Part shown: positions 9,308-34,077 of the stretch, in pieces
How the letters are laid out: every line of letters begins with the position of its first letter
How positions within the stretch are numbered: the stretch's first letter is position 1
DNA from: Tannerella sp.
GTDB taxonomy: Bacteria > Bacteroidota > Bacteroidia > Bacteroidales > Tannerellaceae
Length of the DNA: 57,212 nt
Direction: 5' to 3'
Assembly (NCBI GenBank): GCA_031258835.1
Contig: JAIRMH010000179.1
Span: 1-57,212, forward strand
The notes under the pieces: generated by a model
Told to the model about the DNA's origin: nothing
The model's database searches: none
The model's input: only the letters and a program-made list of their open reading frames with translations
Translations under genes and position numbers: made by a program

Positions 9308-9376
9308 CAAAGATACATGAAATTTACGAATTACACACAAATGTATAAAAATGTCGGGCGAAATTTATAGGAGAAA
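9308..9376 (-). repeat. Dispersed ~70-bp repeat, copy A, carrying the psd promoter -7 box
   Basis: This stretch is similar along its whole length to 33242-33312 and 34007-34077. On the minus strand it ends in TTTCATGTATCTTTG, whose last eight bases (9308-9315) are a perfect -7 box 16 bases before the psd ATG. A TTG at 9338-9340 leaves a spacer of 22 bases. Copy A is the most diverged: it keeps the two GAAATTT segments and the ATAAAAATGTC core but differs in the middle. The remaining gap to the helicase stop at 9410 shows nothing else. Confidence 0.7.
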
Positions 9377-9409
9377 ATCATTTTTTTTCTCTAATATGGG
9401 CAAGGATGT

Positions 9410-12400
9410 CTAAAAAATACATTTTTCGATATCATTAAGTGAGATATACCAAAGATAACCATCCACGTGTCGGTAGCCCATATCCCGTATCAGGGATATA
9501 TATTTTTTCACCTGGCTGTGATGAGAACTCTCCTTTTTCCCCCCGAACTTGTAATCGACAACGGTAACATTGTCGCTATTGTCTTTCATAATACGATCCG
9601 GACGGCGCGATTGTCCTTTCCCGAACAGTATATCTGTTTCCATCAAGACCTGCATGGAGCCGTCGAACCATTTTTCCACCTGTTCAATACCGATAAGGCC
9701 GGTAAGCCGGTCTTTCAAAATGTCGGCCTCGTCGCGGGTTATTTCGCCGGATAAATATTTTATGGATATTGCGGAATCTATGTCCTCCCGTTTCTCAACG
9801 AGGCTTAATATATCGTGCATAAGTAATCCGTATTTACGTTTTTCCTCTTCGAAAAAACCGCTTTTACGGTGTTGCAGGCGCAACTGTATCCGCTTGTCGG
9901 GCGACACGGAATACAAATGTCCGACGTGCAGTTCTTCTATTTCCGGAGTTTCTTCGCTCTTTGTCGCCGTATGCCACCATGTTCCGCGTTCATAGATGCC
10001 TGCTTCACAGTCTAACGGATGTTGAGTATCCGCTTGTAGTCCTTTCCACAGTAATTGTGATATGCTTGTCGCTCCGCGTTCATGTTTAGGCGCTATTACA
10101 ATGAGTTCTTCTTTAGCGCGAGTGAACGCTACATATAATATATTAAGGTTATCCATGTAAGCATGAAGTTTCTCATGGAAATAGTCGGCGGCAAAGAAAG
10201 TATTTTTTAGCGTCAGGCTGTATTTAACAGGCACAAGGCTTATTTTGTTGAAAGGTTTTTTGGAGGGATGGCACCATAAAATAGCCTCTTTCTGGTCTAA
10301 TTTCCATTCTGCAAAGGGTATGATAACAGCTTTTACGCCAAGTCCTTTTGCTTTGTGTATGGTCATTATCCGGATTGCGTTCTGCGAATCGGGTGTGACT
10401 ATTTTTTTTCGGACTCCCGTCTCGTCCCACCACGAAATGAATTGTCCGATATCGGCCGTTTCGTTCGTTGAAAATTCAACAATTGTGTCGAGGAATGCCT
10501 GGATGAAAATAAGTTCATTATCGGGGAAATCATCTTTGAAGAGACGGAGTAGTCCTTCGGCAATTTCGTAAAGAGGACGGTTCGACAGATTTTTGATGAT
10601 CGCCATCGTTTCGGGCGGGAAAGGGTGAAATAAATTCCGGGAATCTTGTGAGGCAGACCTGTCCCGGTCGTTTTGCAAAACAGAATCGTTGGAGGATTCA
10701 TTTTCGGCGTCCTTCTGTCCTTTGGCGTGCGAAGAGTGTTTTTTTCTGCGTAAGACGACATATGCGGCGAGGGCTTTCTGATAGTTACTTGTAATATCCG
10801 GTTGATGAAGATATCGCAGCATTGCTATGAACCATCGTACCGAAAGAGAAGATCCGACGGTTAGCGAATCTTCCGAGATGATGTCGTATTTGTAGTTCGA
10901 TTCGGGATGCGCTTCTTTATATGTAAGCAATGTATCTGCAGCTAACGCGCCTTCCCTGCCTGTTCGTGTGAGTATGGCAATATCCCGCAGTTCGTATCCG
11001 TTGTCCTGTAACTGTTCGACGATACGTGGCAATTGTTCCAGACTTAATTCCTGCCATTTTTTTTCGTCCGTGTCTTCCAAAAATCGGATATGTACATGGC
11101 CGTTTTTGTCTGTGAAAGGTTTCGAGACGTGTTGTAAAGAGTTGGCATATGCGGATATGATACGGGCGCCAAACTGTTTTTTTTCATCATCCGGCAGCGA
11201 TGACTGCTCTATTTCTTCGTTGTATGAATTTTGCAGGATGGCAGGAATCTGTTCGAAGAGCATATTGTTAAATTCGACAATATGTCGACAACTCCGCCAA
11301 TTTACATCTAATTTTTTTTCGGTTATCTGTTGCGGGAAGTCTTGTTTTACCTGATAGTCGAGCAGCGTCCAGTCGGAATTGCGAAAGCGGTAAATGCTTT
11401 GTTTGATATCGCCCACAATAAGGTTGCTACGGCCATAGTCGAGGCTGTCTTTGAGCAGCGGGCGGAAGTTTGCCCATTGCATGCCGCTTGTATCCTGAAA
11501 TTCGTCAATCATATAATGTTCTATGCGCGTCCCCGTCTTTTCGTATATGAAAGGAATCTCGTTTCCGTCAATTACCTTGTTGAGCAGTTCGGTCGTATCG
11601 GCAATGAGCAATTTATTTTTCTCCTCGCGCCAGGCTGCAATGTGTTGCGACAAATCGGCAAGTATGCCCAGAGCATAGAAATTACGGTTAATCTCGTGTG
11701 CCGTATAATAACCGGCAAGGTTATCAAAAAAAGAAACGATGTCACGTATGAGATCATTCATTCCTTCCCCGTAGATATGTGCGGCTGCCTCTCTATGCGC
11801 GGGCGTGGCTGTTTTTGCAAGATAACCGTCGATATTATCGACTAATCCCCGGAAGGTTGCGCTTGGCGCATCCATTATTCCTTTGACGAGTTTGTTGAAA
11901 TATAAAAATGCGGATCTGCTGCCGTTTTTGAAATCTGTTGGCTGCATTCCATGTTGTTTTATCAACGAAATGCCTTTTATTCCGAACTCTTTTGCCGTTT
12001 GCCGGGCTTGTTGAATAATTTTAGAAAGGTCGTTTTGATAATCGGATAAAAATTCTTTTTGCTGCAGTTCTTCCCGAATTTCGTGATGGTATGATTTATA
12101 TGTTTCTTTAAATAATTGTCCGCCGAGCTTTATGATATCCCGCCGTATATCCCAACCGCCGCCTTCTTCTATTTTGTTTTCGGTGAAACGCAACAGCCAG
12201 TTCATAAGCGCTGCATTTTCGCTTTTTTCAAGTTCGGAAAGCATGTTTTCGACCGATTCTTCCATCATCAGGTTTTCATTCAGCTCTATCTGATAGTTTC
12301 CTTGCAGTCCTATTTCACGGGTAAACGCCCGAATGGTTTGTTGGAAGAAATGGTCTATTGTACTTATGTTAAGCGCCGAATAGTCATGCAATATATTTAT

Positions 12401-12670
12401 CAATATTTCTTTTGCCTGCTTGCGGACGATTGTTTCATCTTTTTTGCCGTTGTCGGATAACATTGCAATATAACAGGAAGGGCGATTGTCGGCAAGGCGG
12501 AACAATTCTTCCACAATACGGTTTTTCATCTCGGCTGTCGCTTTATTCGTGAACGTTACGGCGAGTATGCGCCGGCGCTGTTCCCTGCCTTTGAAAAGTA
12601 ACGACAGATATTCTCCCGTCAGCGTATGTGTCTTGCCTGTTCCTGCGGAAGCGCTGTATATTGTAAGCAT
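9410..12670 (-). CDS. addA: UvrD/RecB-type helicase-nuclease (AddA-like)
   Basis: A 1086-residue superfamily 1A helicase fused to a nuclease, for processing double-strand ends before recombination. Walker A SAGTGKT is at residues 8-14; further helicase blocks include FTNKATAEMK, STIDHFFQ, IDEFQDTS, GDIKQSIYRFR, TIHKAKGLGVK and YVAFTRAKEEL. The C-terminus has a RecB-type PD-(D/E)XK nuclease: LLMHDILSLVE, RRPDRI and VTVVDYKFG with the Asp/Asp-Tyr-Lys residues. A hydrophilic insert of about 40 residues rich in Ser, Asp and Asn lies near the middle, after VLRRKKH. It starts 12 bases after yciH, at the end of the porU-porV-ispF run. The usual partner AddB is not adjacent. Confidence 0.88.
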   Translation of the reverse strand: MLTIYSASAGTGKTHTLTGEYLSLLFKGREQRRRILAVTFTNKATAEMKNRIVEELFRLADNRPSCYIAMLSDNGKKDETIVRKQAKEILINILHDYSALNISTIDHFFQQTIRAFTREIGLQGNYQIELNENLMMEESVENMLSELEKSENAALMNWLLRFTENKIEEGGGWDIRRDIIKLGGQLFKETYKSYHHEIREELQQKEFLSDYQNDLSKIIQQARQTAKEFGIKGISLIKQHGMQPTDFKNGSRSAFLYFNKLVKGIMDAPSATFRGLVDNIDGYLAKTATPAHREAAAHIYGEGMNDLIRDIVSFFDNLAGYYTAHEINRNFYALGILADLSQHIAAWREEKNKLLIADTTELLNKVIDGNEIPFIYEKTGTRIEHYMIDEFQDTSGMQWANFRPLLKDSLDYGRSNLIVGDIKQSIYRFRNSDWTLLDYQVKQDFPQQITEKKLDVNWRSCRHIVEFNNMLFEQIPAILQNSYNEEIEQSSLPDDEKKQFGARIISAYANSLQHVSKPFTDKNGHVHIRFLEDTDEKKWQELSLEQLPRIVEQLQDNGYELRDIAILTRTGREGALAADTLLTYKEAHPESNYKYDIISEDSLTVGSSLSVRWFIAMLRYLHQPDITSNYQKALAAYVVLRRKKHSSHAKGQKDAENESSNDSVLQNDRDRSASQDSRNLFHPFPPETMAIIKNLSNRPLYEIAEGLLRLFKDDFPDNELIFIQAFLDTIVEFSTNETADIGQFISWWDETGVRKKIVTPDSQNAIRIMTIHKAKGLGVKAVIIPFAEWKLDQKEAILWCHPSKKPFNKISLVPVKYSLTLKNTFFAADYFHEKLHAYMDNLNILYVAFTRAKEELIVIAPKHERGATSISQLLWKGLQADTQHPLDCEAGIYERGTWWHTATKSEETPEIEELHVGHLYSVSPDKRIQLRLQHRKSGFFEEEKRKYGLLMHDILSLVEKREDIDSAISIKYLSGEITRDEADILKDRLTGLIGIEQVEKWFDGSMQVLMETDILFGKGQSRRPDRIMKDNSDNVTVVDYKFGGKKESSHHSQVKKYISLIRDMGYRHVDGYLWYISLNDIEKCIF

Positions 12671-12682
12671 AGACGGATGTAT

Positions 12683-13027
12683 TTAGATGATTTTTGTTTT
12701 ACCGTATCCTTCTTTGGCCAGTATGTCCGCAATTTTGTGTCGGAAGTCTCCCTGAATGATGATTTCCCCGTCTTTTACCGATCCTCCTACGCCGCATCTC
12801 ACTTTCAAAAATTTCCCGATGGAAGCGAGATCTTCGCTTTTCCCCCGGAATCCGGTAATAAGTGTTACCATTTTCCCGTTCCTGTTGCGTTTATCCAATG
12901 ATATACGTAACGATTGCTTTTCTTTCGGGAGAGTTTCTTCCTCTGCATTCTTTCCCGTCTCGTATTTAAAGTCGGGACTGGTTGAGTAAACCGTTCCCAA
13001 GCGGTCTTTCCAGTCATTATTTTTCAT
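12683..13027 (-). CDS. yciH: SUI1/eIF1-like translation factor YciH
   Basis: A 114-residue protein whose C-terminal 70 residues form an SUI1 domain: KQSLRISLDKRNRNGKMVTL, then the GKFLKVRCGVGGSVKDGEI core and QGDFRHKIADIL. Bacterial YciH can discriminate initiation complexes in vitro; its cellular role is not settled. It is packed between ispF (9-base gap) and the addA-like gene (12-base gap) and so probably shares their transcript. Confidence 0.92.
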   Translation of the reverse strand: MKNNDWKDRLGTVYSTSPDFKYETGKNAEEETLPKEKQSLRISLDKRNRNGKMVTLITGFRGKSEDLASIGKFLKVRCGVGGSVKDGEIIIQGDFRHKIADILAKEGYGKTKII

Positions 13028-13036
13028 ATATGTGGA

Positions 13037-13504
13037 TTATTTTATTAAAACGACGGCGTAAGCGGCAATTCCTTCGCGGCGTCCGGCGAAGCCGAGATTC
13101 TCTGTTGTTGTGGCTTTTATTGACAGGTCGTTGACCGGGACGCTCATCACTTCTGCCATTGTCTTTTGCATTTCGGGGATATAGGGGTTCAGTTTAGGTT
13201 GTTCGGCTACAATTGTTGCATCCATGTTTCCCAATTCATATCCTGCTTCGCGCAGCATGCGCATGGTTTCGCGGAGCAGTATTTTACTGTCTATATTTTT
13301 ATATTTCCCGGACGTATCGGGGAAGTGATGTCCAATGTCGCGCATGTTTGCCGCGCCAAGCAACGCATCGCAGACAGCGTGTATAAGTACGTCCGCATCG
13401 CTGTGCCCCATCAGTCCGTAAGGATGGTCTATGCGGATACCTCCAAGCCATAGTTCGCGGCCTTCCGTCAGAGCATGTACGTCATATCCGAATCCTGTGC
13501 GCAT
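13037..13504 (-). CDS. ispF: 2-C-methyl-D-erythritol 2,4-cyclodiphosphate synthase
   Basis: Forms the cyclic diphosphate in the methylerythritol-phosphate route to isoprenoids. The 155-residue length fits the trimeric enzyme. Zinc ligands Asp8 and His10 (GYDVH) and His42 (DADVLIHAV) are present, as are the DIGHHFPDT loop and the TTTENLGFAGRREGIAA tail that binds CDP. I chose the ATG at 13504: the longer frame opens with TTG at 13519 and would overlap the porV stop. It follows porV by 7 bases, a pairing common in Bacteroidota. Confidence 0.97.
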   Translation of the reverse strand: MRTGFGYDVHALTEGRELWLGGIRIDHPYGLMGHSDADVLIHAVCDALLGAANMRDIGHHFPDTSGKYKNIDSKILLRETMRMLREAGYELGNMDATIVAEQPKLNPYIPEMQKTMAEVMSVPVNDLSIKATTTENLGFAGRREGIAAYAVVLIK

Positions 13505-13511
13505 GATAATT

Positions 13512-14690
13512 TTATTCAAACAGGCCCTTCAATCCATCCATATCGAACGAAAGAGTAAAACGAAGCGTCTGGTCAAGCGGATTGCTTTGTACGGTACTGA
13601 TCAGGTAGGCGGCATCAAGCTGGAACACGTTCATTTTGAATCCGGTTCCAACGGACAGATACTGACGGTTACCTTTCATCTGATGTTCGTAGAAATAGCC
13701 TGCGCGGACGAAAAACTGGCTGTTATAGTTATATTCGGCTGCGACGGAGAGGTTTATTTCCTTTAGTTCTTCATTCGCCCCTCCCGGCGCATCGCTGAAC
13801 GAATTAATCATACCTTTAACAAAATTCATGTCGTTGTATTCGTCATATCGTTTGTCGTAATCATCCTCATTTTCATCAATGCCCCTTACCGGTTTAGACG
13901 GAACGAGATATTTGTTTAAGTCTACATAAATACCAAGTTGGTTGTAGTCGTCCAGAGGCATAAGCAGACCGGTTCCTATCCGCAGGTTTGTAGGCAGGAA
14001 CTGGTTTGTCATTCCGCCATCATACGTAACTTTGTTTCCCATATTGGAGATATTGAATCCGCCGCTCCACAGACATTCGTTGCTCCCCATGACGATATAT
14101 CGCTCTCCGTATCCGCTTAAATCCGCTGCTACGGCATTACCGGGTCGCAGTTCATATTCTATGTCGGCGCCCATGTCGGAACGTATATAGCGCATGGCAA
14201 CGCCGAGCGAAAATCCTTCCGACAATTTAATGCAGTAACTTACGTCAAGCGCCATTTCATAGGGATTAAGGTTCAGATATTCACGCCCTCCGATATCGGT
14301 AACAGGCACTTCTCCAAGCGAGAAATAGCGAAGTGAAGCGCCAAGCGCATGCTGATCATATTGTCCCAGTTTGTAATATCCGGATAGGTAAGCTAATGCT
14401 ACGTCGTTCACAATTTTACGCATCCACGGCGTATATGACAGTCCTACTCCGGCTTTGCTTTCCATAAATGCATATTTGGAAGGGTTCCAATATTGAGATG
14501 ATATGTCGGGCAGGGTTGCCGCACCATTGTCGCCCATACCTCCACCACGTGCATCCGGTGCTATCGCGAGAGATGGCACTGCCGTGTTAAGAGGACTGAA
14601 CTTGTTTTTTTCATCATCCTGTGCGTGTATAATAAGAACTGATAATGCCGGACATACGAATATCAAGAAACCTAATTTTAATAATCTCAT
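13512..14690 (-). CDS. porV: Type IX secretion system outer-membrane protein PorV (LptO)
   Basis: A 392-residue FadL-like outer-membrane barrel with a signal peptide (about residues 1-23, ending IIHAQ). PorV is the shuttle that collects folded cargo from the translocon and hands it to the sortase PorU for cleavage and attachment to A-LPS. Diagnostic features are the N-terminal ATLPDISSQYWNPSKYAF block, the YTPWMRKIVNDVALAY strand and alternating amphipathic strands to the C-terminal FTLSF. It directly follows porU (69-base gap), so sortase and shuttle are made together. Other T9SS parts (porK-N, sov, porT) are not in this window. Confidence 0.95.
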   Translation of the reverse strand: MRLLKLGFLIFVCPALSVLIIHAQDDEKNKFSPLNTAVPSLAIAPDARGGGMGDNGAATLPDISSQYWNPSKYAFMESKAGVGLSYTPWMRKIVNDVALAYLSGYYKLGQYDQHALGASLRYFSLGEVPVTDIGGREYLNLNPYEMALDVSYCIKLSEGFSLGVAMRYIRSDMGADIEYELRPGNAVAADLSGYGERYIVMGSNECLWSGGFNISNMGNKVTYDGGMTNQFLPTNLRIGTGLLMPLDDYNQLGIYVDLNKYLVPSKPVRGIDENEDDYDKRYDEYNDMNFVKGMINSFSDAPGGANEELKEINLSVAAEYNYNSQFFVRAGYFYEHQMKGNRQYLSVGTGFKMNVFQLDAAYLISTVQSNPLDQTLRFTLSFDMDGLKGLFE

Positions 14691-14759
14691 GCTTTAAATG
14701 TGTTAGTTGTATACTTGTTTAAAAATTACACGTAATCTATAAACTCTATTTTCATATCT

Positions 14760-17700
14760 TTATTGTGCAAGTATAATTAATTTCTTTGCCTTCGAGACTT
14801 CGTTGGATTTATCGCTGCTTATTACGGCGCGATAGATATAGACGCCGGGACGCAGGCGCGCTCCTGCGCCATCTGTGAGGTTCCAGTTTATTTTATACGA
14901 ATTAAATATCTCCGACGAACCCCGTTCTTCACACTTCCATTGCAGTCTCCCCGCCATATCAAAAACTTGAATTTGCACATTGATCAGCGATTCGGGCAAG
15001 TCGTGCGAAATAATGAAGTTCACATATTCGCTTGCCGGAGACGGGCCTGCCGTCAGGTTGATGATAGACGGTTTATAATTATCCGCCACTACGAAATTGA
15101 AAACGCCGGAACTGGAATTGTTATAACTATCCCATATTTTGAACTCGCCGGTATGTTTCCCGGCTTCGAGTTCCGGAATTGGGAATTTTACGATGCATTC
15201 GCCCTTTTCGCCTTCCAGGTAGGCGCCGTAGTAGCTGTTTAACACAAAGTTCATTGCCGGGTTATTGTCGATTGTAAGCGTGATATCATGCCCGATACCG
15301 CCCCCGCTTACGTTTATACCGCTTTCGTCCCATACGATAGCGGCGAATACAGGCGTTTCATTCACTTTGTCGCCGTCTTTGAAGTCGGAAGTGTTGAGAT
15401 ACATCATCCGTATATCCGGCCCGGTAGTATCTTCGCCGGTGATATCTGCCGTTCCTCCTAGTGTAAAATTCTTATAACATCCGTTGGCCTCTTTGTCGTT
15501 ATCCCGGTCGGCTGCATAGAGCGATATTTTTCCATTTTGGTAGGAATAAAAGATGTCTTTCGGGACGGTGAAAGCGAATGAAAATTCGCCGTTGCGTACC
15601 GAATCGTTACCGATATACATTACACTGGGATAATCCGAATAGGTGAATTTTATGTCGGTACCGTTATTGTCTAGCGTCGTGATCTGGTCCTGGCTGTCGA
15701 AAACCAAAACCGACATCAATCCGTTGAAGTCGGTTGCCGGCATCCCATCCGGCGCATTGATCTTTCCACTAACGGTAATATTTTCGAATGCTTTGAAGTT
15801 CACAGGCTTGTCTGTGATGGGCTGGCCGTTTATCTCCGTCACCTCCATGTTGTAATCATCGGGAAAAGCAAGTGTTAGTGCCGGGTCTCCGATTAAAACA
15901 AAACTCATTATTTTTTGATTTTGGAGGGTGCCGTATGAACTCTTGAAAGCGTTTTTTGAATTTTTCAATGCATCTCCGAGTCTTTGATGGCGTCCGTTAT
16001 CTTGTTTCTCGAACAGGTTTTTCAGAAACAATTTGTTTATTTGCAGGTTCTCATCGCTATATGCAACACGTGAAGTCGTATACAGGGCGATTCCTCCGCT
16101 GTTTTTATTGAGGAACACCTCTTCGCCGGCGGAGATTCCTGTTGCATCGAATGGAGCGAAATCGCACGACGCCGTTATCCAAAGCGGAAGATTCGGATAA
16201 GTTGCATTGCTGATGTCCGCCTGTGTCATAACTTTTTCTTCCGCCCACGATTCGGAATCGCTATGGCCGGTGTAATTGATTATTAACACGCCTTCTTTTA
16301 GTTCTTTCTGAATGTTGGCGCGGATATCGGGGTAGGTAGGTTTCCCTCCCGAATTGCTCTTTTTGTATGCGTCAAAGAACAGTTTCCTGGGAATGTATTG
16401 GGGGTGGTTATTTTCGATATATTGCGCCAGCAAATCCGATCCTTCCATATGTTCTATATCATGATTGTCGGACGGGTTCCCGTCGTCCGCTATGAAGCAC
16501 AATTTATTTTTCCAGAACCCGTAATTTGAGTTTTCGATATACGAAATCACTTTATTTACCGCATTTTTTGCCTGCGTAACCGTGGCGACAGGGAAACGCC
16601 CGATGCCTATACACATCGTCGCATTAATCGGGTTGGCGCCTTCATTATCGTACAAGAATCCGAAATAATCGTCGGATACGTACGAACTTTCTCCGATAGA
16701 TTCGACCGATTGATATGTGACGATATAATTGTCGGATGAATTTTCCCATTCCTTAGTGAGTTTCCTGTTGTCGAAGCGTCCGTCGCCGAACAGCAACAGG
16801 TATTTCGGCGCATCGTCGTCTGAAGTTCTGCGGTCGTAAAACATTTTCATGAAACGGCGGATCGCCGTCGCCTCTTGTCCGCCGCCGGAAAACTCGTTGT
16901 ATACCTGTTCGGGCGTAACTACGGCAACAGTGAGGCGGTCGTGCGAACGATGAACATCGGCCAACCGTTTGGCTTCCGATACAAATGCGTTCGGAGCCAG
17001 TATTATCATATCCGTTTGTGGCATGCCGTGCAGGTTTTGCGGTGCTATTTCACCGACTACAGCTGGAGATGGCAGATCTTTATTCGATATATCGACCATT
17101 GCAAATTCACGCAACGGCCCTGCCGGTATCGAAAAGGAGAGTTCTGTTCCATTCCGTTTCGTTTCGATTTTCCACATTCGGTTACCTTCCGTTACATCAA
17201 AAACGATCATGTCGGATGGCGCATTTTTGATAAGAAAACGTGTGGCTTTGTTCTCGGATTCGATGCTGCGGAAAAAGGTGCAGGAACCGTAAGGTTGCAA
17301 CCGGCGTTTCATTTGCAGGCGTATATAATCTAAGTGGCTTGTCTGTTGGGTTACGCTGAAAGATATATTAACCGTTGTGTTTTCGCTTTTTTCTCCATTC
17401 CATACCACTTCCTGCGAAACGCCTAAGGCGGCGGTGTAAATACCGTTGTTCTGGCCGATGTTAGCGCTTGTAAGTTTGACGCCGTCGGCGCTCATAGTCA
17501 CGACGCCTGTTCCCGACTTTACTTTCGCGACAAAACGAAAGGCTATTTTCCCGTCGTCGTTTGTGATTCCGGGAATTGTGAATTTGAAATCTCGGGATGT
17601 ATTTGTGTCGAAACTCTCACCGAAGAGATCGCGACCGGAATAAGGGCGTCCGGGGGTTGTGATGGAAACCATATCCTGTTCATGCAGCATGTAATCGTCA

Positions 17701-18182: not shown

Positions 18183-18230
18183 AAAGCGTTTCTTTTTTAA
18201 AATTCACGTCGGAACCGGAACAGGATATGT

Positions 18231-18845: not shown

Positions 18846-18852
18846 TTTCTTG

Positions 18853-19506: not shown

Positions 19507-19594
19507 AATATCCGTTCTTCTTTCATTCGATGTTGTTTATATGAATTTTGTTACTTGCCGTTCGTAGCCGTTCTCAATTTCATTAAAAACATTC

Positions 19595-22949: not shown

Positions 22950-22951
22950 AG

Positions 22952-23563: not shown

Positions 23564-23612
23564 CTAATGCTCTTATACCGGACGTTTGTATTCATTTTTT
23601 ATATACCAACAA

Positions 23613-23642: not shown

Positions 23643-23674
23643 TTTATTATTACGGAGGTTACGCGCAAGGCGCT

Positions 23675-23827: not shown

Positions 23828-23915
23828 CTTCTATTTGTTTTTTTTACTACTATATTATATTATTCTGCAAGTTAGTTATTATTCTGCATTGGGCTTAATA
23901 CTCCAAACGAGGCTG

Positions 23916-23946
23916 CAAAGATAGATGTTTTTTTTGAAACGGCAAA
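23916..23946 (-). promoter_or_regulatory. Promoter for rpmH
   Basis: Minus strand: TTTG (23943-23946), exactly 19 bases, TATCTTTG (23916-23923). Both boxes are perfect matches to the Bacteroidota consensus. Confidence 0.8.
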
Positions 23947-23962
23947 ATTTTTGGCGCGCGAT

Positions 23963-23993
23963 TTTGTCATCAGCAATAAATCAGCTATCTTTG
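23963..23993 (+). promoter_or_regulatory. Promoter for uxaB-uxaA
   Basis: TTTG (23963-23966), exactly 19 bases, TATCTTTG (23986-23993). It is the same sequence and spacing as the rpmH promoter, pointing the other way with 16 bases between the two -33 boxes. The start would fall near 24000, about 76 bases before the uxaB GTG. Confidence 0.75.
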
Positions 23994-24075
23994 TTCTGCC
24001 AATCACTATTGTATAACCGCAACAAAGGAACAGGTTTTTTTGATAAAAATAAATTTAATAATAAAAAGAAACATC

Positions 24076-25518: not shown

Positions 25519-25538
25519 ATTATCCGCTATATAATTTT

Positions 25539-27059: not shown

Positions 27060-27316
27060 AAATTCGTAACTACTCAGGTGCATTTCAGTAGAAGGATATA
27101 ACAGTTTCTTCAGACATTCTTGGGTTTTGCATAATAGTGCAAGCCTGCCTGAATGGGAACAAAACTCCTGCAGATAAAAATGTGTTGTAAAACATAATTT
27201 TTTATTTGCTGATTTTATTCTTTTGCACTTTCTTCGCAAAAAAATAGCAGAATATGGCACAAGTAAGCAATATTATATTATGTAATTATCCATGGTTAAA
27301 GTCAAGATTACCGGCG

Positions 27317-29626
27317 ATGGATAGGAAATGTTATTTAATTTTGTTCCTATTTTTAATGTGGATGGAAATGCAAGCTCAAACATCTGTCATTAAGGGCACA
27401 GTTGCCGATATACATCAAAAACCCATTTTTCCGGCAAACATTCTTTTGTATGATTTAAATGACAGTACACAAATAATTAAAACAGCTTCTACTGATATAA
27501 ACGGTCGTTTTGTATTATCGCAAATTCCCGTCGGTAACTACAAACTATCAGTTTCATGTATAGGATATGATAGAATACAAATTCATATTGAGAACTTGTT
27601 ACAAAACATAAATTCTCTACAAATCGTGATGTTGGAAAAAGCGATTGAACTCGACGAGGTCACGGTTATGGCCGATAATATAATACATAAATTCGACCGG
27701 CAAATAATTTTTCCGAATGAGTTTGAAAAAAATAATTCAATAGGCGGAGTAGAACTCATTGAAAAAATGAACTTGAATAGAATCGTCATAAACAGAGAAA
27801 ACAATACAATTAAGGGATTATTAGATGGAATTGTACAATTACGCATAAATGGCGCACCGGCAGATTTTGCGAACGTGCAAGCTATTGACCCAAAATTAGT
27901 AACACGAATAGAATATCATGATATGCCATCAATGCGATATGGAGAAGTAGAAGCGGTGATCGACATGTATGTAAAACGCAGGGAATCAGGAGGTTCAACC
28001 AGTCTATTTACTTATAATTCCGTAACGTCGGAAGTCGGTAACGAGTCGGTAAACATAAAACTGAATCATTTAAAATCGGAATTTAATTTAGAGGGCGGAC
28101 ATTCATATACCCATTTTAAAAAGAATTACAGTACAAATAAATCCGTTTTTAACTTTGAAGATGGGACAGCGCTTACTCGCTATGCAGACGGTATTCCATC
28201 GAAATATTATGAAGATATGTATAATGCGAGAATGAGTTACAGCTACTATGATCCGGATAATATTTTGTTTGTAGCGAAGCTGTCTTATATTTTCTTTGAT
28301 ATCCCGATCAGCATCGGGAAAAGTCATTTATATACGGACAAACAACCGGAAATATTAATAAATAAGATAGATTCAACGATCTATCACGACAAAAAACCGT
28401 CATTCAGCCTTTATTTCCAAAAGAATTTAAGAGATAAACAGTTTGTAGCGTTTGATATAGTAGGCACCTATCTTAATGTTAAGTCAATTGATTCATATCA
28501 CGAAACACAGGAAACAATCGCAGTAACAGATATTTATTCCGATGTGAACGGAGAGAAATATTCGGTTATCGCCGAGGGAATTTATGAAAAAAGATTTGAC
28601 AAAGGAAAAATAAGCGCCGGATTGAAGCAGAATTTAAGTTTTAGTGATAATGAATATAGAGGTTCATTGATTTATGACAGTAAAATGAACCAGTATCTTA
28701 CCAACGGATATTTAGAATGGTCGGCAAAAATAAATCGGGTGAATTATGCCATAGGTATTAGGGGAACATTCATCCAGATGCGTCAGGAAACGGGGAATGA
28801 TTCCTATGTTCGCTTTAATCCTTCCTTGAAATTAGGATATATGTTCAGTGGTAACGCTCAAATTCGTTATCAAAGCAAAATGTCTATAGGAATCCCGTCG
28901 CTTGGCCAACTTAGTAATGTAGAACAAGTTGAGGACAGTTATCATATAAGAAGAGGAAACCCTAACCTGAAACCGGCATCAAGCTATTCTAATTTATTAA
29001 CTTTTACATTTGATAAAGGGAATTTTAGTTCCAGTTTGGATGTGAACGACATCTATGTTGCCCGTCCGATGCTGAGAAATACCTTCCGTGAAGACGGGAA
29101 GTTTATAACACAAATGCAAAATGCCAAAAACGCTCATAGCGTTTATGTTTTGGGATCAGTAAGATGGTCTGCTTTCAACAGGCGACTAAGTGTCTATGCA
29201 CGAGGCGGATACAGGTATAATAAAAATACAGCCGATGATTATTCACACTCGCTAAATTGTTGGTATGGCACCTTTGGCGCAAGCGGGACATACAAGGATT
29301 TAACGCTATCCGGCGAGGTCCGAAAAGAGGCGGATCTTCTTTCAGGTGAACGAATCACATATCGCGGACAATCTGCACAATTAGGAATAGATTATAAATG
29401 GAAAGACATAAAAGTAGGAGGAACAATGGGTTGGGATTTGCGTTCATTCGCCAATCGAATTTTAAACTTAAACCGATATGCTTCAAGTGACAGCCGAATT
29501 TACATGCCCGAAGGCCAAACCTATTTAAGGCTTAAAGTCTCATGGAACTTCAGTTTTGGACGTAAACATAGCAGTGGCTATAAACGTATTGAAAACAGTG
29601 ATGAGGGTAGTGGAATTTTATTGTAA
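27317..29626 (+). CDS. Outer-membrane beta-barrel protein with carboxypeptidase-like regulatory domain (TonB-receptor-like)
   Basis: A 769-residue protein. From the ATG at 27317 it has a signal peptide (MDRKCYLILFLFLMWMEMQA, cut near QA/QT), then a carboxypeptidase-D-like beta-sandwich (SVIKGTVADIHQKPIFPANI ... VGNYKLSVSCIGY), a short plug-like region (LDEVTVMADNI) and a long barrel with Y/F-rich strands ending in WNFSFGRKH. The longer frame from 27254 would put 21 residues in front of the signal peptide, so I reject it. It resembles the OMP_b-brl_3 family rather than SusC: no SusD partner follows. It is AT-richer than uxaBA, and an IS5-type remnant begins directly after its stop. Transported substrate unknown. 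Confidence 0.75.
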   Translation: MDRKCYLILFLFLMWMEMQAQTSVIKGTVADIHQKPIFPANILLYDLNDSTQIIKTASTDINGRFVLSQIPVGNYKLSVSCIGYDRIQIHIENLLQNINSLQIVMLEKAIELDEVTVMADNIIHKFDRQIIFPNEFEKNNSIGGVELIEKMNLNRIVINRENNTIKGLLDGIVQLRINGAPADFANVQAIDPKLVTRIEYHDMPSMRYGEVEAVIDMYVKRRESGGSTSLFTYNSVTSEVGNESVNIKLNHLKSEFNLEGGHSYTHFKKNYSTNKSVFNFEDGTALTRYADGIPSKYYEDMYNARMSYSYYDPDNILFVAKLSYIFFDIPISIGKSHLYTDKQPEILINKIDSTIYHDKKPSFSLYFQKNLRDKQFVAFDIVGTYLNVKSIDSYHETQETIAVTDIYSDVNGEKYSVIAEGIYEKRFDKGKISAGLKQNLSFSDNEYRGSLIYDSKMNQYLTNGYLEWSAKINRVNYAIGIRGTFIQMRQETGNDSYVRFNPSLKLGYMFSGNAQIRYQSKMSIGIPSLGQLSNVEQVEDSYHIRRGNPNLKPASSYSNLLTFTFDKGNFSSSLDVNDIYVARPMLRNTFREDGKFITQMQNAKNAHSVYVLGSVRWSAFNRRLSVYARGGYRYNKNTADDYSHSLNCWYGTFGASGTYKDLTLSGEVRKEADLLSGERITYRGQSAQLGIDYKWKDIKVGGTMGWDLRSFANRILNLNRYASSDSRIYMPEGQTYLRLKVSWNFSFGRKHSSGYKRIENSDEGSGILL

Positions 29627-29940
29627 TCAAGATAAATAGTCGTCCCTTAAATAATGGAATTTTACAGCCGGATTAAAATTCCCGATAAAGGGAAACCATC
29701 CCAAAGCAGGAAAATATTTTTGAGCCAAAAAGACAACAATTTCTTTCAACTGTTCATTTTCTTCTTGAAGTTGAAGGCAGCGGCGGCTAAGAGCACATTG
29801 ATCCCGTCGCCAAAGAGTCCTTTGTAGAAATTACGGCTTAAACGGTGGTCTGATTTGGCGTGCCCGATAACGGGTTCTATATCCTGCTTCTTCTGTGATA
29901 ATACCCTGTTGTACAGCATCAAATCCAATCTTTTTGGAGT
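29627..29940 (-). pseudogene. IS5/IS1182-type transposase, C-terminal remnant
   Basis: On the minus strand, codons at 29928-29752 read EPVIGHAKSDHRLSRNFYKGLFGDGINVLLAAAAFNFKKK (in two runs of that order), the conserved C-terminal block of IS5-group transposases with the catalytic Glu region at its start. The frame then breaks near 29752; the next frame continues QLKEIVVFLAQKYFP to LRDDYLS and ends exactly beside the stop of the upstream outer-membrane gene (29626). The N-terminal two thirds of the transposase are missing. This is a dead fragment, marking the left edge of the protease region. Confidence 0.75.
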
Positions 29941-30009
29941 AGCGGAAGGTAACTTAAATTAACAACGCGCCGGCGCAAAATAAATAATTCGTTATATTGT
30001 TTACGTTGA

Positions 30010-31194
30010 TTATATGCCCGTATCTGTTGTTGAAAGACCGGAAGATGTTCTCTTCGCCCACTTTAGTCTTTTATATGCTTCGTTTGCTATTGCGTATTCC
30101 GTCTGTGGGATGTATATCGACAAACCGCTAAATGTTTTGATTTCTTGCAATGTACGTGTTCCCGCTGAATAGTAGCTACCGGTGCAGGCTTTGTACAGTA
30201 TGCAGTTGTTAAGTACAGATTGAAAATCATTATATTTTTCGGACGATAAATGCCGCACATAATCCCCCAAGTCAAAATAGATTTTTTGATTGCCGTAACC
30301 AAACGTCTGTATGTCCATAATATTTGTTTCATTAAGAATTTGGTCTGTAATTTCGCAAAAAACGCTTATTACTGTTTCCAATCCTGCTGTTCTTACTACA
30401 CTGACCGTTGCCGATTGATATAGACCGCTTTGAGCGGCGTAATATTCGTAAAACTCACGGGCGATTGCTGTTAAATCAAGGTCGAACTTGAACAAATGCT
30501 TCATCATGGAAAAATAGACAAACCCTGGAGACAGTACTTCGGCGGGCGAGGCTACTATATAATCAACTTTGTCTTTCAGTTCGCAGGCGACTTCAATTGA
30601 CCCCATAAAACAAGCATCGAAAATGATAAAATCAAGTTTATATGGTATGGCATCGGCAAAATCCGTTAGTTCCATATAATTGTTTGCTTCGTTAACACCT
30701 TTGTCCAGAATAACGGATTTGAGTATGGGTGCAGGGTCGGACATATCAGCAGGTAGCCAGCCTGTAGCATGTGACAGCACGATCAGGCCGTAAGAAGCGG
30801 CAGGGAAATATTCTTTTGTTTTGTTGAGTACACGGGTAAGCATGGCGGGAGATGATGAATTTTCTATCGGACAAATTTCAATGGTGTCGGCTATGTTTCC
30901 GTACCTTTCAGTATAATGGATATGCACCAATACAGGCTTTTCGCCGGTGTCGGAGTAAACAAGCAAATTGCCGTCAAAGTTTTTATCCCAATTTTCAGTT
31001 AACATTTCGATTTTCTGAGAGGCTTCAGCGCGGAAATTGTTATCAACTCCCAAATAGACAAGCACCGTGCAACGCTCGCTCGCAGGTGCATTGGCCAATT
31101 CTTCCTTTTCGCAGGAAACAAACATCCATATTATGGCAATTATGATTGCCATAATATGGATGTTTCTACTGTTTCTATCATCTCTCAAAAGCAT
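30010..31194 (-). CDS. Clostripain-family (C11) cysteine protease, lipoprotein
   Basis: A 394-residue predicted lipoprotein. After a short n-region and the hydrophobic stretch MAIIIAIIWMFVSC the lipobox Cys is residue 28. The C11 domain follows: VLVYLGVDNN opens it, the catalytic His is His142 in IVLSHATGWLP, and the catalytic Cys is Cys195 in DFIIFDACFMGSIEVA. Known C11 enzymes cut after Arg or Lys and are self-processed; fragipain of Bacteroides fragilis is a relative that activates a toxin. The ATG at 31194 gives a charged n-region; later ATG 31152 would still keep the lipobox, and the longest frame (31266) does not look like a signal sequence. The signal region lies in a 46-bp palindrome. 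Probably third in the operon with the C10 gene. Confidence 0.87.
   Translation of the reverse strand: MLLRDDRNSRNIHIMAIIIAIIWMFVSCEKEELANAPASERCTVLVYLGVDNNFRAEASQKIEMLTENWDKNFDGNLLVYSDTGEKPVLVHIHYTERYGNIADTIEICPIENSSSPAMLTRVLNKTKEYFPAASYGLIVLSHATGWLPADMSDPAPILKSVILDKGVNEANNYMELTDFADAIPYKLDFIIFDACFMGSIEVACELKDKVDYIVASPAEVLSPGFVYFSMMKHLFKFDLDLTAIAREFYEYYAAQSGLYQSATVSVVRTAGLETVISVFCEITDQILNETNIMDIQTFGYGNQKIYFDLGDYVRHLSSEKYNDFQSVLNNCILYKACTGSYYSAGTRTLQEIKTFSGLSIYIPQTEYAIANEAYKRLKWAKRTSSGLSTTDTGI
31120..31165. repeat. 46-bp palindrome inside the C11 signal-peptide region
   Basis: Arms 31120-31140 and 31145-31165 are perfect reverse complements of 21 bases each, around the 4-base spacer TATG. An outer GAAAC/GTTTC pair (31115-31119 and 31171-31175) extends it with a bulge. 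It covers the codons for the hydrophobic core and the internal ATG at 31152, so the mRNA could form a very stable hairpin near the start. The two strands encode nearly the same peptide here. Confidence 0.9.
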
Positions 31195-31328
31195 TTTGTC
31201 AACTAATACCTGCTGCCATATTATTATACAGATAAAAAAGAGGGGAAGAAAATGAATTCCTCCCACTCTCCTTAGGATCGTCGAGATATAAAAGCATATA
31301 GTAAAAAATCATAATGCCTTCTGCATAT

Positions 31329-31787
31329 TCATTTTCCTTCTTGGAATATACTCACTTCGCCTTGTCCATTTGCCCCGGCATTTATGGATATTTTCATCCT
31401 CCGTTCCGTTCCGGTATTTTCCTTAAGTTGAATTATGATATTAGAGCCATCTTTTTCAATGGAATACCATTCGCCAACAACGGGATTATCATATACATTA
31501 AATGTATCCCCACCCTCGGATTTAGTAACAAATGTGTTTGAGTGTACAACTTCACCAATCGTTACATAGTTGACACCCCACTTGTCCTGATGTCTCCAGT
31601 TACCTGTATCCAGTATCCGAATAATCCCGGATGATTCCTTTGCCTCAAAAGTCAGTTCTTTCTTGTCAAATCTAAGATTGTATTCTCCATCTTTTGGTAA
31701 ATTACTATCATTACTGCAACCCGATATAAGAACAATCCCCATAACGGCAATAAAGGCGTTTACCGTTTTCTTAAATAATGTATTCAT
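31329..31787 (-). CDS. Small lipoprotein between the C10 and C11 proteases, possible protease inhibitor
   Basis: A 152-residue lipoprotein: signal MNTLFKKTVNAFIAVMGIVL with lipobox ISGC (Cys24), then an all-beta domain of about 125 residues. Its end, SINAGANGQGEVSIFQEGK, resembles the last strand of BACON-type domains. I chose ATG 31787 because the upstream part of the frame has no signal-like start and overlaps the C10 gene's stop. The gene starts 16 bases after the C10 stop. In Bacteroides fragilis and streptococci, C10 proteases are encoded beside small inhibitors, so an inhibitor role is plausible but unproved here; a BACON-like adhesion or spacer domain is the alternative. Confidence 0.7.
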   Translation of the reverse strand: MNTLFKKTVNAFIAVMGIVLISGCSNDSNLPKDGEYNLRFDKKELTFEAKESSGIIRILDTGNWRHQDKWGVNYVTIGEVVHSNTFVTKSEGGDTFNVYDNPVVGEWYSIEKDGSNIIIQLKENTGTERRMKISINAGANGQGEVSIFQEGK

Positions 31788-31803
31788 ACTGTTCAATTTT
31801 TTT

Positions 31804-33008
31804 TTAGTACATATCAATATATATCTGCACATTATCATCAAGATACGGTTTGTTTTTACTTGCAGGCTGTTCATAGTTAGCATACCATCCATCGTCGTAT
31901 CCACCCCAGCCCCAGTTGCAGTGGAGTGAATGTAATGTACTTACCGTCGATGAATTAGCTACACAATATATGCCGTCCCATATCCATGCATGTCCCACTC
32001 TTGGGTTTTTTGTAAAACCGGAAGTGAGGTGGATATTGCCGGTAAGAAGATTTTGGTATAACCAATCTATTCTGATATTTGCATCGGTCTTTTTATTCAA
32101 ATTGTAATAACCTAAACCGACTATATAGGAATAAGCATTATTCATTGATGCAGAAGTACTCGAACAGCCGAAAGTTGCTTGAATACCCAAACCTACAACT
32201 CTCATAAATTCAGCTATATCACCGGCATAAGGGCTACTGGTGGAAATATTGGACGTTGTCCTCAATGTCGATAAATTATACCAGTTTGAATAAGTTGAAG
32301 GGAAATTATAATACGCGATTACCTGTGCTACGGCAGTTGTTACACAACCGGTATAAACATGTCCACCACTGCCTCCGCTCGTACATGTGGCAAGATTGTT
32401 GTTATACGGAGCGGTTTGGTTCCATGTGGTTTGAACCAAAGGCCCAATTATGACTGTTGAACTGGGTTCTGCTCTTGTCACAGGATCTTCCTCAAGGGTA
32501 TAATATCTGTCAATATCATCCTCTATTATTGAAGGAATATTGAATAGAGTTGCTGCTAATCCTTTATTAAAGGTTGTGTCGGAAAAAGCCCCTTTTTCTG
32601 TATAGGCATATACCCTGTTCAATCGAGGATCGGAGCATACGATTGCAAACCCTTCATCACCATTTACTTCGAAAGAAACATTTTTCACTGTAACATTTAT
32701 TTTCCCGTTTTCAAGTGCTAAATCAGAACTTCTCGTTGATAAAATATCTGATGGAGGCTCAACTGCAAATTGCTGATACTCTATAGATAATACATTCAAT
32801 TTGTTCGAAGTACTGTTAGATCTCGTTTTTATATTCCGATTCACCGTGTTCCTGAAATTTTCAAGTAATGCTAATGTCGGATCTTCCTAACTGAATTATC
32901 AATAGGATCAATTACCGTAACTTCACTGTCTTTACAATTAGTTAAAGCCAGCACACACATTGCCGTCATAATGGCGACACTCATAAAAAACTTCCTTTTT
33001 GTATTCAT
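31804..33008 (-). pseudogene. Streptopain-like (C10) cysteine protease, frameshifted
   Basis: ATG 33008 opens a lipoprotein signal (MNTKRKFFMSVAIMTAMCVL, lipobox ALTNC at Cys25) but runs into TAG at 32871 after 45 codons. The rest of the protein is open in another frame from about 32884 to 31804. Adding one base near 32883-32885 (AGGAAGATCC to AGGAAAGATCC) joins the frames into about 401 residues: signal, prodomain (LALLENF, GFAIVCSDPR), then the C10 domain with catalytic Cys in GHVYTGCVTTAVAQVIAYY (codon 32346-32344), catalytic His in RVGHAWIWDG (codon 31992-31990) and the CNWGWGG loop. All catalytic parts are intact, so the lesion is recent or a sequencing error. A consensus promoter lies at 33108-33137. 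Confidence 0.82.
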
Positions 33009-33107
33009 AATAACGATTTTAAATAAATAATAAAACTTCTATATTAATTCCTTATTTTAATTTTTCACAGAGCCGAAGTTCGTATAAAACACTGTTAGAA
33101 ATCACTG

Positions 33108-33137
33108 CAAAGTTACTATTAAAATTCCGAAAAACAA
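33108..33137 (-). promoter_or_regulatory. Promoter for the C10 - lipoprotein - C11 group
   Basis: Minus strand: TTG (33135-33137), exactly 19 bases, TAACTTTG (33108-33115). The start would be near 33101, giving a leader of about 93 bases before the C10 ATG. Confidence 0.7.
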
Positions 33138-33175
33138 GCAGATGTTCTAAAATATTTTATGATTATCCGCACATA

Positions 33176-33491
33176 TCGCAGATTCAACCATCAAATGCAA
33201 CAAAATTATTAATACGCTCAAAGAACTGCTTTTAGGCGTGTCAAATGTACATGAAATTTTCGACATTCCACACAGACCGATAAAAATGTCCTGTGAAATT
33301 TATATGGGAAATATAAGAATTTTTCTTGGTCTTCGATTAATTTGGCACTGAATATTGTTCACGTCCTGCACTGACACATTACTATGGGGCATTTTTTTAG
33401 GGAAATACTGTCTGATAAGACCGTTCGTATATTCATTGAGGCCCTGTTCCCATGACGAAAGGGTTGGCAAAATAAAAATTAGTTTTAAGCG
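33176..33491 (-). mobile_element. IS30-family element, 3' remnant, split by repeat copy B
   Basis: On the minus strand 33491-33322 reads LKTNFYFANP, then after a small frame change SSWEQGLNEYTNGLIRQYFP, NNIQCQINRRPRKILIF: the typical C-terminal DDE domain of IS30 transposases (W..G.NE.TNGL.RQ.FPK, N.RPRK.L). The coding sense resumes after repeat copy B as D-TP-KKQFFERINNFVAFDG (with one base missing) and stops at 33184, followed by the IS tip down to 33176. So this is one decayed IS30 tail interrupted by the ~70-bp repeat. 33492-33585, up to ssrA, shows nothing. Confidence 0.8.
33242..33312 (-). repeat. Dispersed ~70-bp repeat, copy B, inserted in the IS30 remnant
   Basis: About 40 consecutive bases are the same as copy C at 34007-34077 (from the TACATGAAATTTTCG part to GATAAAAAT), and the rest is similar. 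On the minus strand it ends CATGTACATTTG, again a TAnnTTTG box. It splits the IS30 transposase sense between ...KILIF and DTPKKQFF, and ATTT appears on both sides of the inserted segment. Confidence 0.8.
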
Positions 33492-33585
33492 CTGTAGTAA
33501 TCAGTGGTGTTCGTAAAATTCGGTACCCCAGACATTTATCAACTTTTGTATTTTACTCATTTTTCAGGCGATTACGCCACGTTTG

Positions 33586-33982
33586 TGGAGCTGGAGAGAT
33601 TCGAACTCTCGTCCAAACGAGGAACTAATTTGCTTTCTACATGCTTATCTTCGCCTTATTTTTCGTGTTGCAGCAAGACCGAAGCCACCAACCGTAACCT
33701 TAGTCCCTGAATTTTCATCTGCCGTACGGGACTTCCGTCAGACTGTCTCCGATATATCTGCACCACCTGATCGGAACGCTTCGAAGCCACAGCTTCCGGG
33801 TGATGTCTCGTCCAAACACCTGGTGTAAGGATAAAGCTTTAATCTACTATACTTCGATTAAGCAGCGAGAGCATAATTGTTTTCGCCAGTTAAATTTTTG
33901 TCAACCGAGATTATAGTGCCGGCCAACGACGCACTGCATGCTTACAAACCACTTCTACCCGCTGTCAAAACCGGTCAGCCCC
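33586..33982 (-). ncRNA. ssrA: tmRNA (transfer-messenger RNA)
   Basis: A 397-base tmRNA that rescues stalled ribosomes together with SmpB. The 5' end GGGGCTGACC (33982 downward) pairs with the 3' acceptor strand CAGCTCC, discriminator A at 33586; the 3' CCA is not encoded (the next bases are CAA). The T arm with GAGTTCGAATCTC is intact. The tag reading frame is 33887-33858, codons GGC GAA AAC AAT TAT GCT CTC GCT GCT TAA, giving GENNYALAA. The tRNA-like half begins GACCGGTTTTGACAGCGGG. The -7 box upstream (34007-34014) belongs to repeat copy C, so a leader of about 20 bases would be trimmed by RNase P. Confidence 0.98.
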
Positions 33983-34006
33983 AATGGATTGTTTCAATAT
34001 TGGCGG

Positions 34007-34077
34007 CAAAGATACATGAAATTTTCGACATTCCACACAGACCGATAAAAATATCCGACGAAATTTACAGGAGAAAT
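34007..34077 (-). repeat. Dispersed ~70-bp repeat, copy C, carrying the ssrA -7 box
   Basis: On the minus strand it ends in AAATTTCATGTATCTTTG; TATCTTTG at 34007-34014 is a perfect -7 box 25 bases before the mature 5' end of tmRNA. It is the copy closest to B. No TTG lies at the normal -33 distance; CTG at 34038-34040 leaves 23 bases. Confidence 0.8.

Follow-up and report, generated by a model that had tools for sequence, protein, structure and literature searches.

A short repeated element in a Tannerella genome that appears to insert into and rebuild the -7 box of promoters

Copies of the repeat in the window and in the genome

The DNA analysed here is contig JAIRMH010000179.1 of Tannerella sp. 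(assembly GCA_031258835.1), positions 1 to 57,212, and this whole stretch is referred to as the window. Its minus strand carries three full-length copies of a repeat. Copy A (9308..9373; positions 2-68 of our nhmmer model) ends at the promoter box of psd (8587..9291, minus strand, ATG at 9291; named by eye and from the earlier note, with homologues in 80 loci) and is absent from the relatives L116-L121. The apparently rebuilt psd -7 box, TATCTTTG, occupies 9308..9315 (minus strand), and TGATTTT to the left of the copy (9374..9380, minus strand) is read as a relic of the native box, for which relative L117 has TATTTTTG in the aligned position. Copy B (33242..33308) has the box TACATTTG at 33242-33249 and a left relic, TATATTT, at 33309-33315; abutting its end is a second dispersed module (33177..33241, minus strand, ACACGC...GTTGAATCTGCG), which matches a consensus drawn up by eye at 98.5% identity and occurs at 12 places among the fetched loci. 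Copy C (34007..34073) has TATCTTTG at 34007-34014 and the left relic GAGATTT at 34074-34080, with the tmRNA gene ssrA (33583..33982, minus strand) downstream. The earlier note had taken segments 9308-9376, 33242-33312 and 34007-34077 to be one repeat that places a -7 box ahead of psd and ssrA. We could confirm this: the segments can be aligned along their length, minus strand, with TTTCATGTAnnTTTG at the end of each, 40 consecutive bases are identical between B and C, and the boxes of A and C are positioned as claimed. The native-box relics had been missed, as had two truncated copies. One of these, the right end D (54031..54055, plus strand, box TACGTTTG), lies 47 bp upstream of an ORF at 54103-55266; the other, of sub-family II (7735..7781, minus strand, box TAATTTTG, blastn E 5.8e-5), precedes a small minus-strand ORF with its ATG at 7709-7711.

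The 18-base end motif AAATTTCATGTANNTTTG occurs exactly four times in the window (copies A, B and C, and 54038-54055 on the plus strand) and ten times when up to three mismatches are allowed; the mean after shuffling was 2.04, and none of 100 shuffles reached ten. Throughout the genome there are 94 exact occurrences, against none for the reversed control. A genome search for further copies had been set as a test of the repeat, and as a result of 151 model matches, whole and truncated, a lack of further copies is excluded. The host assembly (G000) is a draft, 86% complete, and 151 is a lower bound on copy number. Full copies, 84 in number, are 64-67 bp long and have a sharp left end in common; of 140 records that include a right end, 56 have no left end and begin at variable points; 13 copies are left-only. 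The element is short, non-coding and present in many copies, as are MITEs (miniature inverted-repeat elements), and as a repeated upstream sequence with promoter motifs at many non-orthologous places it resembles a mobile promoter.

As for orientation, 55 full copies have a next ORF that starts away from the box and 6 do not. The ratio was 35:5 for right-only copies and 3:5 for left-only copies, which are without the box; at other intergenic sites it was 113:19 for TAnnTTTG and 218:128 for TAnnTTT followed by A, C or T. Copies also form head-to-tail stacks at the insertion point, built mostly of unlike copies, and sub-family II displays the same architecture.

Junctions with native promoter boxes

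We then compared orthologous loci in relatives, with upstream regions from 29 relatives for ssrA. At E<=0.01 the model matched one of 172 orthologous-locus sequences, the ssrA locus of G016, which has its own copy within the ssrA box (TACCTTT/CCCC, the slash marking the junction). This excludes the alternative raised in the earlier note that conservation is confined to psd and ssrA orthologues. Matches were present in 33 of 36 genomes of the same genus, at lower copy numbers. Viral contigs, searched with one motif pattern, and plasmids and phages, searched with one 68-bp copy, gave no match. An immobile promoter class or regulon site, of ancient common origin and conserved for its function, would agree with the strong orientation to gene starts and with the few intergenic regions in which two right ends face each other (e.g. 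C148, C189), but the promoters of relatives differ at the same genes, as the single match in 172 illustrates, and relic boxes and stacks would not be expected; we regard it as very improbable. Of the two readings in the earlier note, a conserved control module is disfavoured, and a mini mobile element supplying promoters fits best with about 150 whole or truncated copies, with their strong orientation toward gene starts, and with the promoters that relatives have at these genes without the element.

At alignable sites, relatives carry a native promoter, and the copy lies inside its -7 box. The junction converts TAnnTTT/G to TAnnTTT, an element ending in CATGTACA, and TTTG. When the element was removed in silico, its own flanks aligned across the junction at psd (55/71), ileS (54/66), folP (69/81, gap-free, with G001), purL (60/79) and sufS (48/56, gap-free, with G007). 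Of 77 copies, 22 have the left relic TAnnTTT in exact register, against 0-2 in other registers (sub-family II, 8 of 19); at the break it was present in 1 of 56 right-end copies without a left end. The left-flank profile agreed only moderately with other promoters (r 0.44 at shift 0, 0.40 at shift +2). In the rebuilt box, nn was CA in 47 of 68 copies, compared with 6 of 95 other promoter boxes. From these alignments, in the clearest cases the element lies within a native -7 box, which it rebuilds, rather than equipping a promoterless site.

In order to examine the native box systematically, we asked whether the right flank aligned to a relative with at least 60% identity and with TAnnTTTG at the aligned place. 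This was so at 13 of 30 loci and for 47 of 870 mismatched pairs, and at 65% identity for 11 of 30 and 12 of 870, respectively; 17 of the 30 loci fail at 60%. The thresholded version was used instead of one without a threshold, in which 338 of 870 mismatched pairs pass and 16 of 30 loci compare with a mismatched mean of 11.65 (largest, 15). In the relatives read, a native box was not found at the aligned place for ruvC, a reductase gene (C27), cstA, a dehydrogenase gene (C145) and a flavoprotein gene (C291:2425).

The precise junctions, left relics, CA-type boxes, stacks and second sub-family together point to a mobile element that carries a promoter, takes the -7 box as its target and rebuilds it. 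Comparison of sequences establishes precise insertion at the best loci, as well as position, orientation, copy number and stacking. We consider it probable that this is a small, non-autonomous mobile element, site-selective for the -7 box of primary-sigma promoters, which it rebuilds. The target TAnnTTT/G would be opened between TTT and G, and the inserted unit would be CYYCTATAAATTTYGCCGGACATTTTTATCGGTCTGTGTGGAATGTCGAAAATTTCATGTACA plus TTT. A dead relic, TAnnTTT, would stay on the left, and on the right the TACA of the element together with TTTG would form the new -7 box, with a -33-like TGTG (TTG or TTTG in sub-family II) provided by the element interior 19-20 bp or so ahead of it, judged by eye. 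The rebuilt box would itself be a target, so that later copies would land there head to tail, which would explain the stacks. By supplying a promoter in this way, the rebuilt box would drive transcription, and many ordinary genes now appear to be driven by the promoter of the element and not by their own.

Two other routes to such insertions have to be considered. The first is mobilisation, as a MITE, by a DDE transposase that prefers promoter boxes and duplicates a 3-bp TTT target, the box being rebuilt as a by-product of the duplication. Insertion is precise, and TTT flanks full copies on both sides (T in 84, 90 and 88% at the three left positions), which is compatible with either a duplication or a shared core. 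By eye, sub-family I has a weak inverted similarity (CCCCTATAAATTTCG..GACATT / AATGTC..GAAAATTTCATG), but none is visible in sub-families I' and II, so that by eye the terminal inverted repeats of MITEs are lacking, and the right flanks of the 13 left-only copies (0.1-1.2 kb) contained no transposase-bearing element with matching ends. We judge this route rather unlikely. The second needs no enzyme: promoters would be copied by recombination or template switching at short shared stretches (TAnnTTTG, T-runs), with selection for a good promoter. The short identities at junctions, the 56 copies with variable left ends and a partial insert at C147, where only about 28 bp are new and the join is at a T-run, are in its favour. 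Clean 64-67 bp insertions with both native flanks kept, and the sharp left end common to 84 full copies, are not, and we find it unlikely.

Candidate mobilising enzymes

The probable mobile element would be moved by an enzyme acting in trans. The right end reads GTANNTTTG in 109 of 115 cases, with a following C in 69 of 115, and GTANNTTTG(C) is what we take to be the IntDOT core site. For this reason a CTnDOT-type tyrosine recombinase is our first choice, a guess. A CATGTACATTTCCCC site would recombine with a TAnnTTTG site, perhaps through a circle intermediate in which CATGTACATTT is joined to CCCC. The core site of CTnDOT would be GTANNTTTGC; the open-licence literature searched did not contain the IntDOT core sequence. 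A tandem pair of IntCTnDOT-type recombinases is present at C343, and the one scanned harbours Arm-DNA-bind_5, Phage_int_SAM_5 and Phage_integrase, a set matching the published description of this type (PMC8138268).

The loci examined yielded no unit in which element ends enclose a recombinase or transposase. When 30 recombinase loci were searched with the model, the only matches were a weak end (E 0.012, and 0.077 in a second search) lying some 0.3 kb upstream of the C343 pair and, in G035, a single copy located downstream of a recombinase fragment. Locus L503 contains one CATGTANNTTT string without a model match. Nor do recombinase homologues follow copy number: G030 has 39 homologue matches and no element. 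The 13 left-only copies showed no autonomous partner in the 0.1-1.2 kb fetched on their right side from the incomplete genome. The copies flanking an hflX-xerD pair at C297 were considered as a recombinase unit and are read as ordinary promoter insertions, and an IS30-like transposase (by eye) beside C207 looks like a later insertion.

We also considered single-strand insertion 3' of TAnnTTT by an HUH/Y1 enzyme of the IS200/IS605 or REP/RAYT type, perhaps into a melted -7 region. Insertion is 3' of nTTT, and at the best loci no target bases are lost. Nevertheless, the Y1 transposase domain PF01797 had no match in G000 (86% complete), with a positive E. coli control, nor in the drafts of six relatives (G001, G007, G033, G010, G008 and G035), and Y1/RAYT mobilisation was rejected as no enzyme was found in the genome. 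In addition, 37 aligned copies gave an RNAalifold consensus of -0.03 kcal/mol with no compensatory pairs (RNA parameters), so that a conserved RNA structure was rejected and the end hairpins typical of these families are lacking as a stable consensus. This mode of insertion seems most improbable.

Relation to known elements

Elements that target tRNA genes restore the genes they enter, and in a similar way the present element restores what its insertion breaks. CTnDOT is a large element encoding its own integrase. The likeness to CTnDOT and IntDOT, which integrate site-selectively in Bacteroides, lies in the putative core, which equals the right end here, and in the IntCTnDOT-type pair at C343; in contrast, the present elements are 65 bp long and gene-free. 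These points raise the tentative possibility of promoter homing, in which the attachment core of a CTnDOT-type recombinase (GTANNTTTGC) and the Bacteroidota -7 box TAnnTTTG would be one and the same sequence, so that active promoters would serve as attachment sites. A gene-free 65-bp parasite would then rebuild both site and promoter, create a new target with each insertion and put a single common promoter in place of native ones genome-wide, at little cost to the host.

Porphyromonas gingivalis belongs to the same order, Bacteroidales. Its BrickBuilt element, as far as described in the part of the source available, has 19 copies with 23-nt repeats, 12-bp inverted ends like those of the IS5 family, promoter activity measured in E. 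coli and target duplications of varying length (PMC4596501). Both are intergenic, promoter-associated mobile repeats; BrickBuilt has one filled/empty pair, and that part of its description, unlike ours, includes no -7 box rule (PMC4596501). Promoter-bearing MITEs, such as the Correia elements of Neisseria, are classed as inverted-repeat elements (PMC10969869). They too are short, numerous, upstream of genes and equipped with promoter sequences, but here no inverted repeats are visible that the sub-families have in common, and the element enters a single core promoter box and rebuilds it. The 'mobile promoters' of Matus-Garcia, Nijveen and van Passel, named in PMC8049555, are a class defined by repetition and are not known to have a target rule, whereas the present element has a defined target, a defined junction and defined empty sites. 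The open-licence literature searched did not report a comparable element.

Promoter-carrying mobile DNA is already known, and is normally thought to alter the expression of neighbouring genes; here the landing site is the promoter core itself. If the rebuilt boxes work, unrelated housekeeping genes, among them psd, ssrA, ileS, folP and purL, would in this way acquire a promoter in common, and promoter turnover would be readable at the single-base level. If the IntDOT core is as given above, the -7 box and the core site of an integrase, two Bacteroidota sequences, would be linked.

Copies and anatomy of the element

Segments A (9308-9376), B (33242-33312) and C (34007-34077), all on the minus strand, had been described in the earlier note as one dispersed repeat, and alignment confirmed that they are true copies of a single sequence. 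In the 4.2 Mb, 354-contig genome (a draft, 86% complete with 4.9% contamination), the end motif AAATTTCATGTANNTTTG occurred exactly 94 times, versus 0 for the reversed control. A sequence-only model built from 37 copies gave at least 151 matches (best 150 of 4570 candidates scored). Mapping with nhmmer on the loci taken gave 154 records: 84 full copies, 56 right-only copies that keep the box end (7 score below 12 bits and are probably chance) and 14 left-only copies without the box (1 spurious). This mapping covered 80 of 97 listed regions directly, and 2 or 3 of the others through loci already taken.

The consensus of family I is CCCCTATAAATTTYGCCGGACATTTTTATCGGTCTGTGTGGAATGTCGAAAATTTCATGTACATTTG, and a variant, I', has ATTCGTCTGTGTGTGATTGAAAAATTTCATG as its middle. 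Sub-family II, with the consensus CCTCTGTAAAAAAACTTTTTTCATTTCGTGCGCGCTTGGAAATCGCAGAATTTTCATGTAGTTTTG drawn by eye, reached at least 47 matches with E<=1 when 40 of its 102 candidates were scored; 30 loci were read. The ends are common to both sub-families: near CYYCTRTAAA on the left, T(T/A)TTCATGTAnnTTTG on the right. A conserved RNA structure was looked for in 37 copies and none was found. By eye, an interior TGTG (I) or TTG/TTTG (II) lies ~19-20 bp ahead of the box. In PMC7366714, the sigma-ABfr consensus is TAnnTTTG/TTTG with TTTG as the -33 motif, absent from some Bacteroidetes; the interior motifs of the element are positioned near this -33 TTTG.

Other repeats were found beside the element. 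A module, ACACGCNTAAAAAGCAGTTCTTTGAGCGTATTAATAATTTTGTTGCATTTGATGGTTGAATCTGCG, lies at 33177-33241 (minus strand), with a remnant at 34373-34388 (minus strand), and at 12 places in the loci taken; it begins directly after the TTTG of the box, with a family I right end ahead in 10 of the 12 and none in contigs C9 and C145. At loci L467 and L471, a box-ended repeat ending in GCGAGCGGGAGCGATCATGTACGTTT (one base differs) stands left of sub-family II copies with the same junction, and at L464 a related end also precedes a sub-family II copy at that junction; this repeat is perhaps another sub-family. Downstream of B, an ORF at 31804-32844 (minus strand) resembles, by eye, a C10-type peptidase; its start is probably mis-called or broken.

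Empty sites and junctions

Gene names other than tmRNA were assigned by eye from protein sequence. The nearest named relatives at psd (L116-L121, one recorded as Porphyromonadaceae and five as Tannerella sp.; protein 85-87% identical) lack the element and have a native box, which reads TATTTTTGCCGCACTTTAATAGAC-ATG in L117. At ileS, this genome reads TCAACTTT-element-GCGGCAATTTTTTAACAGGG; in its closest relatives, whose IleS is ~87% identical over its first 323 residues, the same place has AATAAAAAAGATTATCTTTGCGGCAATTTTTTAACAGGG or a sequence close to it. At folP, TATTAGGTTATTTTCATACATTTGCGAG in relative G001 corresponds to TATTAGGTTATTTTCATACATTT-element-GCGAG in this genome, and the empty sites at purL and sufS are as clear. 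With the element removed and the flanks joined, alignments ran through the junction at folP (69/81) and sufS (48/56), both without gaps, and at purL (60/79), ileS (54/66) and psd (55/71); they were weaker at pheS, MBL, fabD and C175, with fabD hardly above chance. Both flanks are kept around a clean insert at the best loci, which makes this integration rather than replacement.

All 29 relatives read at ssrA carry a TAnnTTTG no more than 150 nt from the tmRNA, and in 13 it ends within 45 nt, as in this genome. Relative G016 carries its own copy there, with TACCTTT on the left followed directly by CCCC; at this place TACCTTTG is intact in G064. This was the only match of the model (E<=0.01) among 172 orthologous-locus sequences of relatives; the single match among 80 psd loci lies away from psd. 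Upstream of hflX, metF and trxB, where this genome has family I, relatives G007 and G010 (L371, L366, L400, L412) have their own box-ended sequences, TTTTTCATGTAnGTTTG or similar.

Junctions of full and right-only copies were examined at 30 loci with relatives, scoring right-flank identity together with TAnnTTTG at the aligned place. At 60% identity 13 of 30 loci qualified versus 47 of 870 mismatched pairs, and at 65%, 11 versus 12. Failure of the remaining loci comes from a long or changed leader, from another module in between, or from the lack of a box there in the relatives; no native box was found in relatives at the aligned place at ruvC, the C27 reductase, cstA, C145 and C291:2425.

On the left, the relic TAnnTTT was in exact register in 22 of the 77 full copies outside tandems; other registers gave 0-2 of 77. 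Full copies of sub-family II had it in 8 of 19 cases, and right-only copies had TAnnTTT at the break in 1 of 56. The A-profile of the left flank correlated with that of 95 other promoter boxes at zero shift (r 0.44), closely followed by shift +2 (0.40). The variable bases of the rebuilt box were CA for 47 of 68 full copies, against only 6 of the 95 other boxes, a set in which, as in the other intergenic sites below, sub-family I alone was masked, hence some sub-family II boxes are included. This indicates that 'TACA' is element-derived and that only TTT is common to both sides. A DDE transposase duplicating TTT would be another mover, one we consider unlikely.

Stacking and orientation

Integration at the -7 box would leave a box on the right of each copy, and head-to-tail copies joined at the box were present at four places. 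The identities of five neighbour pairs fell at percentiles 0.22, 0.44, 0.91, 0.34 and 0.07 of all pairs. Four of the five therefore lack the likeness expected of local duplications; the pair on C199 may be one. On C313, a sub-family II copy lies directly behind a sub-family I copy with the same kind of junction.

Excluding copies that overlap an ORF call (15/84 full, 11/56 right-only, 2/13 left-only) and counting stacked copies individually, 55 full copies have a right-hand ORF starting away from the box, 6 have one ending there and 8 have no call. The start-to-end counts were 35 versus 5 for right-only copies (5 without call) and 3 versus 5 for left-only copies (3 without call). The ORF is called from an ATG within the element, a start-calling artefact, in 7 of these 55 full and 4 of the 35 right-only copies. 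At some loci, such as hflX, a further box lies between element and gene. Other intergenic TAnnTTTG sites face gene starts 113:19 (TAnnTTT[ACT], 218:128; reversed motif, 37:29), so the orientation of the element is about that predicted by a TAnnTTTG target. A total of 298 TAnnTTTG sites lie within ORFs. The rarity of the element in genes needs active-promoter targeting or selective loss.

Mode of movement, distribution and significance

Crossover of a circle junction, CATGTACATTT joined to CCCC, with a target cut between TAnnTTT and G would yield the products seen. Of 115 right ends, 109 read GTANNTTTG, and in 69 the next base is C. The core of the CTnDOT integrase is taken to be GTANNTTTGC, and a link of these ends to it is tentative; the papers searched name IntDOT and its domain class and do not print the core. 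The genome encodes five tyrosine recombinases: two above the XerD cut-off, one XerC-like below the XerC cut-off, and a tandem CTnDOT-type pair on C343 (L495, L496), whose scanned member has Arm-DNA-bind_5, Phage_int_SAM_5 and Phage_integrase domains. About 0.3 kb upstream of this pair stands an end that resembles the element but has diverged (E 0.012), a match that chance could give. Across the genomes compared, homologues of the C343 recombinase did not track element copy number; G030, a single 3.0 Mb contig, has 39 matches to it (E<=1e-30), several in adjacent pairs, and no match to the element model.

On C147, the new sequence is only ~28 bp with the join at a T-run; together with the many copies lacking a left end, this shows that decay or recombination accounts for some of what is seen today. 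On C207 (L237) a left-only copy stops at model position 48, just before an ORF that by eye is an IS30-like transposase. Two more left-only copies, on C269 (L260) and C251 (L258), stop at positions 50-51 close to contig ends, and GCTGGATCTCCGCAAGTTTCTG follows in both; a mobile element perhaps inserted into these two. On C297 (L492), hflX, preceded by a family I copy, and an xerD-like gene are convergent, and past the start of xerD a sub-family II copy faces away, while a diverged end resembling family I (25.7 bits) faces xerD.

At least one match (E<=0.01) was present in 33 of 36 same-genus relatives, and the same holds for 3 of the 24 genomes that represent the order's other families; with equal filters, the top count in any relative was 29 versus 86 in this genome. 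Viral contigs searched with one motif pattern, and plasmids and phages searched with one element copy, gave no match. Nor did we find an earlier description of the -7 box target rule in the open-licence literature searched.

Taken as sequence evidence, these results make it likely that the elements form a mobile, promoter-carrying family whose members insert themselves in the -7 box and rebuild it. Consensus and position suggest that the rebuilt box is in use. The element would work like a promoter-bearing MITE, although the inverted ends that define MITEs were not seen by eye. It thus appears to fit the mobile-promoter/MITE kind, yet to depart from it in its ends and its target rule.
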